DNA of 39,255 bases, taken from assembly GCA_013001695.1 (NCBI GenBank), contig JABDMC010000323.1, positions 1 through 39,255 of the forward strand. Direction: 5' to 3'. Under the pieces are notes generated by a model. It was not told the origin of the DNA. It made no database searches and saw nothing but the letters and a program-made list of their open reading frames with translations. Source of the stretch: Akkermansiaceae bacterium. Lineage in GTDB: Bacteria; Verrucomicrobiota; Verrucomicrobiia; Verrucomicrobiales; Akkermansiaceae. Shown here in pieces: positions 9,359 to 34,252 of the stretch (position 1 is the stretch's first letter; the number at the start of each line of letters is the position of its first letter). The position numbers and the translations under genes were made by a program.

Positions 9359-11050
9359 TCATGGCCGCACGGGTTTCGCCCGCGGGATCGCCTGCCCCCG
9401 GGATCCCTTCCCGAAGATCAGCGCATTCGGCTTCTCCTCGATGGTCTCCGCGACCCGCTCGATCGACCGGGCCGCCCCGCGCAGCTCGTCGAGGGTGCGG
9501 CGGATGTCCCCGTAGGCGCTCGATTCCGGGCTGACGCCTTCCAGGGAGCGGCGCAGGGCCGCGAGGGAATCCCTCACCTCCGCGGGCAGCTTCGCGAAGT
9601 TGTCGTCCTCCACGACCTTCCGGATGGCGGCGAGGGCATCGCGCGCCTCCTCGATGGCGGACTCGCTCCGGTCGATCGCCTTGCGCGACGACTCGAGGGT
9701 GCGGGTGGCCTCCTCGACGGCGAGGTCGATGCGCCCGAGCGATTCCTCCAGCGGCAGCTTCTCGATCTTGGCGAGGACCGCCGCCACCTGCTCCTCGAGA
9801 CGGGCGAGGCCGGTTTCGATCGTCGGCAACACCGCATGGTCCCCGAGCATGGCGACCTCCGCCGGCGGCGCGTCGTCGTAGAAATCGAGGTCCACGAACA
9901 ACTGCCCGGTGAGCAGATTGGCGGACCGGAGCGAGGCCCGCAGGCCGCCCGCCACCGCCTTCGAGAGGCCCTCGCCCCCCTCGTCGCGCATCGTCGGCGG
10001 GAACGACTTCTCGATGACGGCCTCGTTGAGCTGCACCATGACGGGCACCCGGCGCGGATCCTTCTCGTTGCTGTAGAGGAACGAGATGCCCACGACCCGC
10101 CCGACCCGCAGGCCGCGGAACTCGACGCGGGCCCCCTCGACGAGCCCCCGCACCGACTGGTCAAAGAGCAGCAGGAATTCCCCGCCGCTCCGGAAGATCG
10201 ATTCGACGGCGCTTTCCCGGCTGTCGTACAAGACGAACTCCGTCCCGTCCGCGACCGGCCCGCCCGGTTCCAGCTCCTCCGGGACGCCGAACGACACCCC
10301 CCCGGCGACCAGCGCCTCGAGCGAGGGGATCTCGAACTTGAACCCCTCGGCCCCGGCCAGCAGTTCCACCCCGCGCTCCGCCCAGAAACGGGTGTTCTCC
10401 GTCACCAGCCCGGCGTAATCGGCCTCGATGAAGACGCGCAGTTCCACCTGCCGGGTGTCCCCGTCGAAGCGGCGGCGCTCCACGGTGCCCACCTTGTTCC
10501 CGGCAAAGGCCACCGGCGACCCCACCCCCGCGATGCTCTCGCCGTCCGCCACGAGGTTGAGCCGCAACCCCGGCACGTTGCTGGGCGTCACGGGCGGCTC
10601 CTCGAGGCCGGTGAAGAGGCGCTGCGGACTCCCGCTCTTTCCCGGGTCCAGTTCGATGTAGGCCCCGGTGATGATGGTTCCCAGCCCGCTGATGCCGGCC
10701 CCGGTGACCCGCGGGCGCACCACCCAGAAGCGCGAGTTCTCCCGCACCAGCTCGGCCGACTTCGGATTGATGCGGAGATCGACAATCACCGAGCCGATGC
10801 TCTCCGAGAGGCGCACCGACTCGACCTGCCCGACCTTCACCGACCGGCAGCGCACCTCGGTCTTCCCCGGCGCGATGCCCTCCGCGGTGAGGAAATTCAC
10901 GGAGACCAGCGGCCCCTGGTCCTGCACATGGCGGTAGGCCAGCCACACGCCGAGGACGACCGCCACCAGCGGCACGATCCAGACGAGGCTGATCCGGCGC
11001 CCCTGGGCCACCTCCGGCTCGAAGACCGGGCTTTCCTCCTGATCACTCAT
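9359..11050 (-). CDS. pqiB: PqiB, MCE-domain lipid transport protein
   Basis: The 563-residue protein has one N-terminal membrane helix (ISLVWIVPLVAVVLGVWLAY), then three MCE domains. Their openings are visible as VSVNFLTAEGIAPGKTEVRCRSVKVGQVESV, NLVADGESIAGVGSPVAFAGNKVGTVE and LLFDQSVRGLVEGARVEFRGLRVGRV. A helical C-terminal region (about 430-540) would form the needle. In E. coli (546 aa) stacked hexamers build a periplasm-spanning tunnel between PqiA in the inner membrane and PqiC in the outer membrane. The start at 11050 lies 8 bases inside the second pqiA gene, which implies translational coupling. No Shine-Dalgarno is seen. All three MCE domains look complete. Confidence 0.93.
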   Translation of the reverse strand: MSDQEESPVFEPEVAQGRRISLVWIVPLVAVVLGVWLAYRHVQDQGPLVSVNFLTAEGIAPGKTEVRCRSVKVGQVESVRLSESIGSVIVDLRINPKSAELVRENSRFWVVRPRVTGAGISGLGTIITGAYIELDPGKSGSPQRLFTGLEEPPVTPSNVPGLRLNLVADGESIAGVGSPVAFAGNKVGTVERRRFDGDTRQVELRVFIEADYAGLVTENTRFWAERGVELLAGAEGFKFEIPSLEALVAGGVSFGVPEELEPGGPVADGTEFVLYDSRESAVESIFRSGGEFLLLFDQSVRGLVEGARVEFRGLRVGRVVGISFLYSNEKDPRRVPVMVQLNEAVIEKSFPPTMRDEGGEGLSKAVAGGLRASLRSANLLTGQLFVDLDFYDDAPPAEVAMLGDHAVLPTIETGLARLEEQVAAVLAKIEKLPLEESLGRIDLAVEEATRTLESSRKAIDRSESAIEEARDALAAIRKVVEDDNFAKLPAEVRDSLAALRRSLEGVSPESSAYGDIRRTLDELRGAARSIERVAETIEEKPNALIFGKGSRGQAIPRAKPVRP

Positions 11051-28707: not shown

Positions 28708-29985
28708 ATGAAGGCTCTCCTCCGCGCCGTCCTTCCCGCCCTCCTGGCGGCCTCACCGGCGGGCGCCATCCCGAATGTCGTCGGCGGATTCATCACCGCC
28801 AACGACAGCGCCCTGAACGGCGAGGACCTCACCGCGGTGGTGCTGGCGGACGGCCCGTGGACCGGCGATGTCCCGCTCCCCGGCGAGTGGCGCGGGGAAG
28901 CCCCTGTGGCCGGCGTGGAATACGCCTACCTCCTCGCCCGCCCGCGGATCTTCGGCATTCCGGCCCTCCTCGTGCAGACCGGGCGCCGCGACGGCGTCCT
29001 CGACTCCCTCGCGATCACCTTCGCCGATGCCGGGTCCTACTTCGGCTACTACCAGCCCGAGCTTCCCGACGGCCTCAGCAGGCGCGAGCGGCAGAAGCGC
29101 ATCGAGGCCGCCCTCGCCGACCGGCGGGAGGCCTTCACCGCCTTCTACAACGAAACCCTCGAGGCGGTCCGCAAGGAACTCGGCGCCCTCTCCGGGAAGC
29201 GCCCCCGCGAGGCGGATCTCGGCAAGACCCGCGCCCTGCGCACCAAGGTCACCGACTACCGGCACGGGGAGTTCCTCCTCCGCCTCATCGCCTGCGACGA
29301 CCGCCTGATTCGGGTCGTCGTCTCGCGGGGCGGGCAACCGGCCCGCAGCTGGCTCGATGCGGAGCGGGGCACCATGGCCACCGGCGCCCTCGCGGGACAC
29401 TACGCCGCGCAGGTTGCCACCGACGAGCACGGCGACACCCGCATCGAGATTCCGGTCGTCCCCCAGGGATACAAACCCTACTGCGGCCTCAACACCCTCG
29501 CCATGGCGGCCCGCTATTTCGGGTTGCACCTCGACGAGGACCAACTGGCGGTCGCGGGCCGCTTCCCCAACACCGGGACCGCCGACGGGTCCCAGCTGCC
29601 GCGGCTCTACCTCGCGGTCGCCAAGGAAGCCCGGCTCGACATGCGCAAAGCCAACACCTTCGACCCCGCCACGGCGCGTTCCTGCCTGAAGGCGGGTCTC
29701 CCCGTCATCGTGTGGCGGCGCTTCTCCCACGACCGCGACCGCGACCACACCCGCCGGACCATGGCCTTCCCCGGCCCCGGCTCCGTGTCCTCCCCAGAAC
29801 CGGACCCGCCGGGTTCGTGGCCGGGGGAAAACGCCCCCCTGCACGCCTCCGTCCTCGTCGGTTACAACGACGAACGTCGCGAGTTCCTCTTCCTCGAAAG
29901 CTGGTCCCGCCTCGGCGGGCCGCGCCGCATGCACGCCAACGAACTGACCGCCACCGCCTACCTTTCCTTCTACTTCAAACCCTAG
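28708..29985 (+). CDS. Secreted C39-like (papain-fold) peptidase
   Basis: The 425-residue product starts with a signal peptide (MKALLRAVLPALLAASPAGA). Residues about 25-245 form an unrecognised N-terminal domain. From about 250 a peptidase C39-like domain follows: PVVPQGYKPYCGLNTLAMAARYFG with the catalytic Cys, a middle region (LPVIVWRRFSHDRDRD), and APLHASVLVGYNDERREFLFLES with the catalytic His. C39 relatives either process double-glycine leaders or act as cell-envelope peptidases or hydrolases of amide bonds. No ABC transporter domain is attached and no bacteriocin genes are near, so leader processing is unlikely. ATG 28708 is chosen for the signal peptide and the promoter before it. It is monocistronic, ending in the RNA-containing gap. 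Confidence 0.78.
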   Translation: MKALLRAVLPALLAASPAGAIPNVVGGFITANDSALNGEDLTAVVLADGPWTGDVPLPGEWRGEAPVAGVEYAYLLARPRIFGIPALLVQTGRRDGVLDSLAITFADAGSYFGYYQPELPDGLSRRERQKRIEAALADRREAFTAFYNETLEAVRKELGALSGKRPREADLGKTRALRTKVTDYRHGEFLLRLIACDDRLIRVVVSRGGQPARSWLDAERGTMATGALAGHYAAQVATDEHGDTRIEIPVVPQGYKPYCGLNTLAMAARYFGLHLDEDQLAVAGRFPNTGTADGSQLPRLYLAVAKEARLDMRKANTFDPATARSCLKAGLPVIVWRRFSHDRDRDHTRRTMAFPGPGSVSSPEPDPPGSWPGENAPLHASVLVGYNDERREFLFLESWSRLGGPRRMHANELTATAYLSFYFKP

Positions 29986-30086: not shown

Positions 30087-30114
30087 TTGCAAGCGGCCCT
30101 CTTCCAGCTAGGGT
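30087..30114 (+). promoter_or_regulatory. Promoter of the structured RNA
   Basis: TTGCAA (30087-30092), 16-nt spacer and TAGGGT (30109-30114). A start near 30121 would coincide with the 5' arm of the closing stem of the RNA. Confidence 0.5.
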
Positions 30115-30120
30115 TCCATC

Positions 30121-30327
30121 GTCTACCGTGTGCGTCGATTCATGGCACCAGCCCGGACCGATGCATTGGAAATGGGGGCAGCCCCCGGCGGACCAATGTC
30201 ATGCCTTTATTGGAAGACAGAGGACTGCCGGAAGTCCCCAACCTGTTGAGACGCGGGAACGTGGCTCATGGGGCCATGGACGGCACGGCGGATAGTTAAA
30301 CCCGCTCATTTACTGAGCGGGTTTTTC
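30121..30327 (+). ncRNA. Structured small RNA of about 205 nt, family unknown
   Basis: The region has a promoter, folding potential and an intrinsic terminator but no credible reading frame. The 5' arm (30123-30153) pairs with the 3' arm (30262-30295) in a long interrupted stem: CUA/UAG at the base, then CCGU/GCGG-type, GUGC/GCAC, GUC/GAC, CAUGGC/GCCAUG and AGCC/GGCU. Inside are two hairpins. One has CATTGG (30164-30169) with CCAATG (30193-30198), capped by GGGGG/CCCCC (30174-30186). The other has ACAG/CTGT (30217-30220, 30243-30246) and GGACT/AGTCC (30222-30226, 30233-30237) with a GCCGGA loop. The long closing stem and the size recall 6S RNA, but the two stable inner hairpins do not fit, and it lacks marks of tmRNA, RNase P or SRP RNA. 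All pairing was done by hand. Confidence 0.6.
30299..30327 (+). terminator. Intrinsic terminator of the structured RNA
   Basis: CCCGCTCA (30301-30308), loop TTTAC, TGAGCGGG (30314-30321), then TTTTT (30322-30326); two AA/TT pairs extend the stem. It is the clearest Rho-independent terminator in the window. On the minus strand only three T follow, so it acts mainly for the plus strand. Confidence 0.87.
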
Positions 30328-30497: not shown

Positions 30498-31007
30498 CTA
30501 CATCTCGATGTCGAACTGCACGTCCATCCAGCTGATCCGTTCGCCCTCGAACTTGAACCGGCCGATGAAGGTGCGCTCGTCTTCCAGCATGTGCGGGAGC
30601 CAGTGCTGGTCGTCTTCCCACATCAATTCGTAGGGGATCTTGTCGAAGCGCGTCCAGCGGGGCACCGCCTCGGGGGTCTCGGTCGGCGTGCCGACGAACG
30701 AGTGCGACGTGTAGACGTGGCAGTGGATGTCCGGCATGTCCGACATCGCGAAGAACAACTCCCCCATCTTCCGCGGATCGCGCGGGGTGATGAGCAGTTC
30801 CTCCTGGGTCTCGCGCACCGCCGACTCCAGCGGGGTCTCCCCGGGGTCGATCTTTCCTCCCGGCCCGTTGATCTTCCCCGCCCCGATCCCCCGCTGCTTC
30901 TCGATCAACAGCACCTCGTAGCCATTCACCACGAACATCAGCGTGGCGTGGATCTCCGCCTGCCAGTTCGCCCAGTCGATCGGCGAGGAGGTTCCGTTCT
31001 TGCTCAT
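30498..31007 (-). CDS. NUDIX hydrolase resembling MTH1
   Basis: The 169-residue protein has a Nudix box: [21 protein letters not shown] fits G-x5-E-x7-R-E-x-x-E-E, with Leu in place of the usual Gly after EE. The second half reads [25 protein letters not shown], close in layout to the oxidised-purine nucleotide hydrolase MTH1 (W-F-P-L-L-L, GYFKF). An oxidised-dNTP sanitising role is plausible but unproven. The N-terminal part has [32 protein letters not shown] 31007 overlaps the gcvP TGA (ATGA), so translation is coupled to glycine decarboxylase. This gene ends the operon. Confidence 0.87.
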
Positions 31008-33838
31008 GTTGATTCGCCGTCGCGGGCGTAGGCTTCCATTCCGGCGCAGGTGCAGACGAGGTGCCGGTCCCCGTGGACATTATCAATGCGGCCCACCGCT
31101 GGCCAGAACTTGTGGTCCCGCAGGTGCGCCGCAGGGTAGGCCGCCGCCTCCCGAGAATACGGCCGGTCCCAGTTGTCCGCGCAGACGGCCTCGGCGGTGT
31201 GCGGGGCGTTGCGCAGGACGTTGTTTCCGGCCTTCGTGGCATCCTCCGCGACCTCCCTGATCTCGCCGTGAATCGCGATCATGGCGTCGCAGAAGCGGTC
31301 GAGCTCCTCCTTCGATTCCGACTCGGTCGGCTCGATCATGAGGGTCCCCGACACCGGCCAGCTCATCGTCGGGGCGTGAAACCCGTAATCCATGAGGCGC
31401 TTCGCGACGTCCTCCACGGTGATGCCGCTCTCCTCGGTCAGCGGCCGGAGGTCGAGGATGCACTCGTGCGCCACCCGCCCGTTCGCCCCGGTGTAGAGCA
31501 CCGGGAAGTGGTTGCGCAGGCGCTGGGCGATGTAGTTGGCGTTCAGGAGCGCCACGATGGTCGCGGCCTGGAGGCCGTCGGCCCCCATCATGCGGATGTA
31601 CATCCAGGAAATGACGTCGATCGAGGCGCTGCCGAACGGCGCGGCGCTGACCACCCCCTCGGCCGAGCCGAGGGCGGCGTGGCCGGGCAGGTACTCGACG
31701 AGTTGTTTCGCCACCCCGATGGGCCCCACCCCGGGTCCGCCCCCGCCGTGCGGGATGCAGAACGTCTTGTGGAGGTTGAGGTGGCAGACGTCCGCCCCGA
31801 CCGCCGCCGGGCTGGTCAGCCCGACCTGGGCATTCATGTTGGCGCCGTCCATGTAGACCTGCCCGCCGTGCCGGTGCACCATCTCGCAGATTTGCAGGAT
31901 GCTCTCCTCGAACACCCCGTGCGTCGACGGGTAGGTCACCATCAGGGCCCCCAGCTCGCCGCTGTGCTCCTCGCACTTCGTCCCGAGGTCGGTGAGGTCG
32001 ATGTTGCCCTCCTCGTCGCAGCCGACCGGCACGACGCGGAAGCCCGCCATCACCGCCGAGGCCGGGTTGGTTCCGTGCGCCGAGACCGGGATCAGGCACA
32101 CATCCCGCTGGGCCTCCTTGCGGGCCCGGTGGTAGCGCCGGATCGCGAGGAGCCCCGCGAACTCGCCCTGCGAGCCGGCATTCGGCTGGAGCGAGACCGC
32201 CGCGAACCCCGTGATCTCCGCAAGCCAATCCCCGAGCTGCTCCAGCATCTCCCGGTAGCCGGTGACCTGGTCGCCGGGCGCGAAGGGGTGCATGGCGCCG
32301 GTCTCCGGCCAGGTGACCGGCATCATCTCGGCGGTGGCATTCAGCTTCATGGTGCACGATCCCAGCGGGATCATGGATTCGTTCAGGGCGAGGTCCTTGA
32401 CCTCCAGCCGCCGCAGGTAGCGCAGCATCTCGGTCTCGCTCTGGTGCGTGTTGAAGACGGGATCCTCCAGGAACCCGCTCCGCCGCACCAGGGCGTCCGG
32501 AAGCCCCGGGGCCGGCTTCCCGTCCGGCTTCCCGCCGAGACAGTCGAGCAAGGCCGTGACATCCGCGTCGGTCGCGGTCTCATCGAGCGCGATGCCGATC
32601 CGGTCGTCATCGATCCGCCGCAGGTTGAACCCGCGCTCGAGGGCCTTGGCCACCAGCCCGTCCGCCCCGCCCTTCGCCACCACCGTGAGGGTGTCGAAAT
32701 AGGTCTCGTTGGCGGTCTCCAGCCCGCCGGCGCGCAGCCCCGCCGCCAGCCGCGCGGTCAAATCGTGCACGCGCCGCGCGATTGCGCCGAGGCCAGCCGG
32801 ACCATGATAGACGGCGTACATCGACGCCATGACCGCAAGCAGGACCTGGGCCGTGCAGATGTTGGAGGTCGCCTTGTCCCGCCGGATGTGCTGTTCGCGC
32901 GTCTGGAGGGCGAGGCGATAAGCCGGCTTGCCGGCCGCATCGATCGAGACGCCCACCAGGCGCCCGGGGAGTTTCCGCTTCAGCTTGTCGCGGCACGCGA
33001 GATAGGCGGCATGCGGGCCGCCGAACCCCATCGGGACGCCGAAGCGCTGCGTCGACCCGACGCAGAGGTCCGCGCCGAAGGCCCCGGGTTCCTTCAGGAG
33101 CGTCAGGGCGAGGGGATCGGCCGCCACCACCAGCAGGCCGCGGGCCGCATGGACCCGCTCCGCGAACTCCGCGTAGTCCGCCACCGTGCCGTAGGTGTCC
33201 GGGTACTGCACCAGCGCCCCGATGAGTTCCCGGTCGTCCGGCGCCTCGAAGTCCGCCCAATCGCCGCACACGAGACGGATCCCCACCGCCACCGCCCGCG
33301 TCCGCAGGACGTCGATCGTCTGGGGGTGACACCGGGCATCGACGAAAAACGTCTTCCCCTTGGGATTGGCGGACTGCGCCATCGCCATGGCCTCCGCCGC
33401 CGCGGTCCCCTCGTCGAGCAGCGACGCGTTGGCGACGTCCATCCCGGTCAGCTCCGCCACCATCGTCTGGAAATTCAGGAGGGCCTCGAGGCGCCCCTGC
33501 GCGATCTCCGCCTGGTAGGGCGTGTAGGCCGTGTACCACCCCGGGTTCTCGAGGATGTTCCGCTGGATCACCGGCGGGGTGAACGTCCCGTGGTACCCCT
33601 GGCCGATGAACGACTTCCGCACGAGGTTCTTCCCCATGATCCCCTGCAACTCCTCGAGGGCCGCGCTCTCGCCGAGGGCCTCCGGCAGGTCGAGCGGCTT
33701 GCTGGTGCGGATCGCGTCGGGAACCGCGGCCTGCACGAGATCCTCGAGACTGCCCAGGTCCAGCGCCGCCAGCATCTTCGCGCAATCATCGGGCCCCGGG
33801 CCGATGTGCCGCTGCGGGAAGCCTGGTGGAATCACCAT
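31004..33838 (-). CDS. gcvP: Glycine dehydrogenase (decarboxylating), fused P-protein
   Basis: The 944-residue protein is the single-chain P-protein, in contrast to split gcvPA/gcvPB. It starts with [20 protein letters not shown], has [38 protein letters not shown] in the N-half, and the pyridoxal-phosphate lysine (K691) in [16 protein letters not shown] in the C-half. [11 protein letters not shown] motif lies upstream of it. It decarboxylates glycine and passes the aminomethyl group to the lipoyl arm of GcvH. The E. coli protein is 957 residues. It starts 36 bases after gcvH and is followed by an overlapping NUDIX gene. No Shine-Dalgarno is visible. Confidence 0.96.
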
Positions 33839-33874
33839 GAACTGCTGGCTGTAAGGGGCACCGGCTCCGAAGCG

Positions 33875-34252
33875 CTAGCTGATCAGGTCCGTGTAGGCGT
33901 CGGCATCGATGAGGTCCTCGAGTTCGCTCGCATCCTCGATGCGCACCCGGAATATCCACCCGTCGCCGTAGGGGTCGCTGTTGACCAGCGCCGGATCCGA
34001 CTCCGCGACGGAGTTCCCCTCCGTCACGCTTCCCGTCACCGGGCTGTATATCTCGCTGGCCGCCTTCACGGACTCGACCACCGCCACGGCCTCCCCGGCT
34101 TCCACATGGCGCCCCTTCTCGGGCAGCTCGATGAAGACCACGTCGGTCAACTCGCCCTGGGCGTGGTCGGTCACCCCGACGGTGGCGATGTCCCCCTCGA
34201 CGGACACCCATTCGTGGTCGGATGTATACTTGAGATTTTCTGGAACGTTCAT
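33875..34252 (-). CDS. gcvH: Glycine cleavage system H protein
   Basis: The 125-residue lipoyl carrier opens MNVPENLKYTSDHEWVSVEGD, with the family's YTxxHEW start, and holds the lipoylated lysine in VAVVESVKAASEIYSPVTG (K63). It shuttles the aminomethyl group from GcvP to GcvT and the reduced lipoyl group to the L-protein. It lies 32 bases after gcvT and 36 before gcvP in the order T-H-P. The L-protein gene (lpd) is not in the window. The length is normal (E. coli 129). Confidence 0.97.
   Translation of the reverse strand: MNVPENLKYTSDHEWVSVEGDIATVGVTDHAQGELTDVVFIELPEKGRHVEAGEAVAVVESVKAASEIYSPVTGSVTEGNSVAESDPALVNSDPYGDGWIFRVRIEDASELEDLIDADAYTDLIS

Follow-up and report, generated by a model that had tools for sequence, protein, structure and literature searches.

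The window analysed in this study is a 39,255-nt stretch of an Akkermansiaceae genome (assembly GCA_013001695.1, contig JABDMC010000323.1). An RNA span at 30117–30298 on the forward strand is located in the gap between a C39-peptidase-like gene (28789–29985, forward strand), whose match to Peptidase_C39_2 is weak and below the cut-off, and a NUDIX gene on the reverse strand (30498–31007). The NUDIX gene and the end of gcvP overlap, and gcvH comes next (window positions 30498–34252). The initial annotation of this DNA had described a gap between convergent genes that lacks a coding frame. The gap is as described; a 70-aa frame with a TTG start (30087–30299) does cross the RNA, but it is not conserved. 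Most relatives have stops in every frame, and the lengths of their RNAs vary by non-multiples of three. Therefore, the region 30087–30299 is not coding.

The RNA is flanked by putative transcription signals, all on the forward strand. A −35-like element, TTGCAA (30087–30092), and a −10-like element, TAGGGT (30109–30114), are separated by 16 nt. Both hexamers are weak compared to the sigma-70 consensus (TAGGGT versus TATAAT), and a consensus promoter scan did not list the pair. Nine congeners have the same arrangement in front of their homologues, with TTGC in the same place and, in most of them, a TAGG-like −10 element at about the same place, which supports the promoter-like pair initially proposed at 30087–30114. 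The first transcribed base is probably located around 30121. The strong intrinsic terminator at 30299–30327 was likewise borne out: its 11-bp stem (−17.6 kcal/mol) is followed by a U tail and is conserved in congeners. A terminator scanner missed it, apparently because the stem runs into the T run.

A cmscan search of the whole window returned a single Rfam match, the 6S RNA family RF00013 (48.4 bits, cut-off 46.4, E = 7.7e-07), which covers the full model (1–187 of 187). Other Rfam matches, such as C0465, anti-hemB and Thr_leader, were far below their cut-offs, and several of them fell on the terminator hairpin. Across the source genome, RF00013 detects one 6S locus, and the next place scores 13 bits. 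The margin of the window sequence over the cut-off is only 2 bits; we therefore did not rest the identity on the RF00013 score alone. The same loci of relatives, throughout the genus and in much of the family, were found by the Rfam model and by a plain DNA similarity search, which is blind to structure. We also used a covariance model, R1, made exclusively from sequences of this order (29 in all) and not including Escherichia coli ssrS; the window locus scores 164.9 bits with this clade model. When R1 was run with filters off on the ssrS region of E. coli K-12, it matched 9984–10167 with 52.5 bits (E = 1.9e-12), and the next place scored 7.3 bits. The annotated ssrS gene spans 9984–10166, and the R1 match begins at the same base. 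The two models are bridged by a genome of the same order (L130), which scores 61.7 bits with RF00013 and 120.7 bits with R1, and members of the class form a continuous series reaching 92.8 bits with RF00013. The 6S family identity is secure because R1 recognises ssrS, and because the class series and the L130 locus connect the two models. We conclude that the locus is almost certainly a gene for 6S RNA (SsrS, RF00013). As far as these tools show, it is a genuine, ordinary and unreported 6S locus, and not a new kind of RNA. The initial annotation had called the RNA possibly undescribed while stating that a clear 6S hit would make it known; the full-length match and the reciprocal recognition of ssrS overturn the first statement by way of the second. 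Its other proposal, an independent trans-acting housekeeping RNA, was right, and the RNA in question is 6S RNA. Judged by its low general-model score (48.4 bits), the window 6S is a divergent branch of the family.

The segment 30121–30327 folds at −95.6 kcal/mol compared to a mean of −73.5 kcal/mol for shuffled sequences (z = −4.36). The paired ends noted earlier are confirmed as a closing (terminal) stem in which 30121–30131 pairs with 30283–30293, with compensatory changes and about 91% of cells paired across the 29 sequences. The downstream helix P2, beside the central bubble and the expected template of the product RNA (pRNA), is formed by 30151–30155 and 30260–30265; 90% of its cells are paired, and four of its five pairs have changes on both sides. 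The apical (internal) stem arm (30173–30240) has a conserved UGUC..GACA tip and shows covariation. It consists of the helices 30173–30179/30234–30240, 30185–30191/30225–30231 and 30197–30200/30216–30219. The 3′ side of the central bubble (30241–30257) carries ACCU..UGAG, conserved in most relatives, and can form an optional small hairpin (30242–30246 with 30253–30257; 78% of cells paired).

RNAalifold recovered only 18 pairs from the diverse alignment, and the Rfam structure was therefore counted directly. It was projected from the window onto an alignment made by sequence alone and compared with 500 shuffles. Changes on both sides were present in 29 of the 48 pairs. The 6S structure had 74% of cells paired (67% in shuffled alignments), 110 double-change cells (65) and a covariation of 0.228 (0.135); none of the 500 shuffles attained these values, so that the check for covarying pairs in relatives came out in favour of 6S; versions of the structure slid along the alignment gave 0.088–0.106. 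The initial annotation had argued against 6S on the ground that two stable inner hairpins take the place of a central bubble. When the sequence is folded singly, its minimum-energy form (−95.6 kcal/mol) contains such hairpins, which close part of the bubble. The centroid fold is the 6S rod with its central bubble, at −91.1 kcal/mol, 4.5 kcal/mol less stable. Pairs specific to the rod covary (0.174 versus 0.109 in shuffled alignments, reached by 0 of 500), as do the pairs shared by the two forms, but pairs specific to the hairpin form show no excess (0.142, equal to the shuffled value and reached by 250 of 500 shuffles). Between the two folds, the comparative evidence favours the bubble-bearing 6S rod, and the bubble itself is supported because the alternative pairs across it lack covariation. 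The feature held to speak against 6S is, judging by the alignment, one that evolution does not keep, and the rejection of 6S was wrong. Because the 6S model served to collect the aligned sequences, they lean towards the 6S structure, although most of the closer loci were also recovered by the DNA search; moreover, kinship among rows can lift scores above those of shuffles even where no structure exists. The contrast between rod and hairpins, both scored on the same rows, is explained neither by the choice of rows nor by kinship. Ahead of pRNA synthesis, the verrucomicrobial 6S might switch between the bubble-bearing rod and a closed form with two hairpins; such control, if true, would be unusual. 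The single-sequence energies given above would allow such a switch, but the hairpin pairs lack support from covariation, and we consider it very unlikely.

The 5′ side of the central bubble contains the motif CCGAU (30158–30162, forward strand). In the alignment to E. coli ssrS, U30162 corresponds to U44, the U of CCGAU at which pRNA synthesis starts in E. coli (PMC8876501). The motif is conserved among the relatives as CCG(A/U)U: its first three bases never vary, and 28 of 29 relatives have U at the start position. Since U30162 is aligned with U44 within a conserved motif, pRNA synthesis should begin opposite U30162. The predicted pRNA of the window 6S is 5′-AUCGGUCCGGGCUGG, and products copied from this position should start with 5′-AUCGGUCCGGG. 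The E. coli pRNA computed in the same way begins with AUCGGCUCAGG. The window RNA further shares with E. coli ssrS and RF00013 its length, closing stem, central bubble, apical stem and nearly always single copy, in addition to the mutual recognition by covariance models. With Bacillus subtilis 6S-1 it shares the rod with a central bubble and possibly a small hairpin on the 3′ side of the bubble (3′-CB), reported in 6S-1 (PMC8876501), whose counterpart would be 30242–30246/30253–30257. The pRNA of B. subtilis starts with G from C40 (PMC8876501), whereas an A start as in E. coli is predicted here. B. subtilis also has a second 6S RNA, 6S-2 (PMC5721685), whereas the window genome has one copy. 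The Ms1 RNA of Actinobacteria is structurally related to 6S and binds the RNA polymerase core without sigma (PMC9130861). Compared by description, it resembles the window RNA in overall architecture, so that a 6S-shaped RNA binding the core instead of the holoenzyme deserves consideration. In sequence and in the order of its parts, pRNA start motif included, the window RNA fits the 6S model of E. coli and Rfam, and Ms1 was described from Actinobacteria (PMC9130861), making its occurrence here taxonomically unlikely. We regard an Ms1-like RNA as extremely improbable.

The thin Rfam margin and the extra inner hairpins of the minimum-energy fold would also agree with a new, undescribed RNA family of Verrucomicrobiota that has paired ends and two inner hairpins and merely resembles 6S. 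Such a family would not be expected to recognise E. coli ssrS through a model never given that sequence, to covary in the rod pairs and not in the two-hairpin pairs, or to belong to a continuous class series up to 92.8 bits with RF00013. We assign this explanation only a minute probability.

The well-known 6S RNA of bacteria is a small RNA that imitates an open promoter and restrains RNA polymerase. For the 6S RNA of the window, we propose a transcript of about 175 nt that would begin around 30121, end shortly before the terminator or include it, and fold into a rod of closing stem, central bubble and apical stem. By homology, this rod would mimic an open promoter, bind RNA polymerase with its housekeeping sigma factor and block transcription under starvation. 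When nutrients return, the polymerase would start opposite U30162 and copy a short product RNA, and this synthesis would refold the 6S RNA and free the polymerase. Expression, polymerase binding, pRNA synthesis and the physiological role are thus expected from the known family. The locus leaves knowledge of 6S RNA itself unchanged; it firmly establishes 6S RNA in the source genome and in the verrucomicrobial class to which that genome belongs, and it yields a clear prediction for the pRNA.

The distribution of 6S was surveyed in relatives and throughout the class. Among 58 relatives, RF00013 gave a match with E up to 1 in 36, all over the full model length. It passed the cut-off in 13, whereas R1 found a homologue in 50. 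The Rfam cut-off is too strict near the source genome, and annotation pipelines that apply it therefore miss 6S in many relatives. In a sample of 141 genomes of the class, R1 finds 6S in 123 and RF00013 in 108 (74 above the cut-off). RF00013 recovers 10 of the 18 genomes missed by R1, so that either model detects 6S in 133 of 141. In agreement with a 6S RNA, for which a separate gene of about 160–210 nt in one or two copies per genome is expected, every class genome with a match had a single one. Among the relatives, only G014 and G034 have two 6S places, the second at contig ends. In G014, both places (contigs C5 and C75) are near contig ends and their flanks are 91% identical over 1.8 kb; the second is probably the product of strain mixing or an assembly duplicate rather than a true second gene. 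Neither RF00013 nor R1 detected 6S in G092, G113 (0.9 Mb, 99% complete) and G246, genus g38. Two of the three g38 genomes without 6S are strongly reduced, which possibly reflects a true loss of 6S with genome reduction. The idea that the locus holds no functional RNA, but a structure that arose by chance in a GC-rich gap between genes or a portion of the short TTG-start frame crossing the region, is vanishingly improbable given conservation across the class in nearly always single copy, the fold z-score of −4.36, the covariation and the lack of conservation of the 70-aa frame. As a separate observation, in another genome of the same order (L135), an Acido-Lenti-1 RNA match at 1800–1847 is located about 110 nt downstream of 6S, just under its cut-off (35.2 versus 37 bits).

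The surroundings of 6S vary among genomes. E. coli ssrS is flanked by zapA and fau, whereas the window 6S has the C39-like gene and NUDIX-gcvP as neighbours. A congener (L125) has the same order of C39-like gene, 6S, NUDIX, gcvP and gcvH, which is absent in another genus of the family (L123), where 6S has different neighbours. The best named match of the window GcvP is from Haloferula luteola (68%), followed by Luteolibacter, which points to a position in Verrucomicrobiota close to these two genera. No 6S was present within the fetched stretches around gcvP of Haloferula, Luteolibacter and other named genomes, and the gene order around 6S is therefore not general. The gcvTHP genes are likewise near ssrS in E. 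coli; we take this nearness as a coincidence, in view of the other neighbours in another genus of the family. A run of gcvT, gcvH, gcvP and NUDIX is also present in the L125 congener, and on this basis the NUDIX hydrolase seems to be tied to the glycine cleavage operon. The C39-like gene is also kept beside 6S in that congener.
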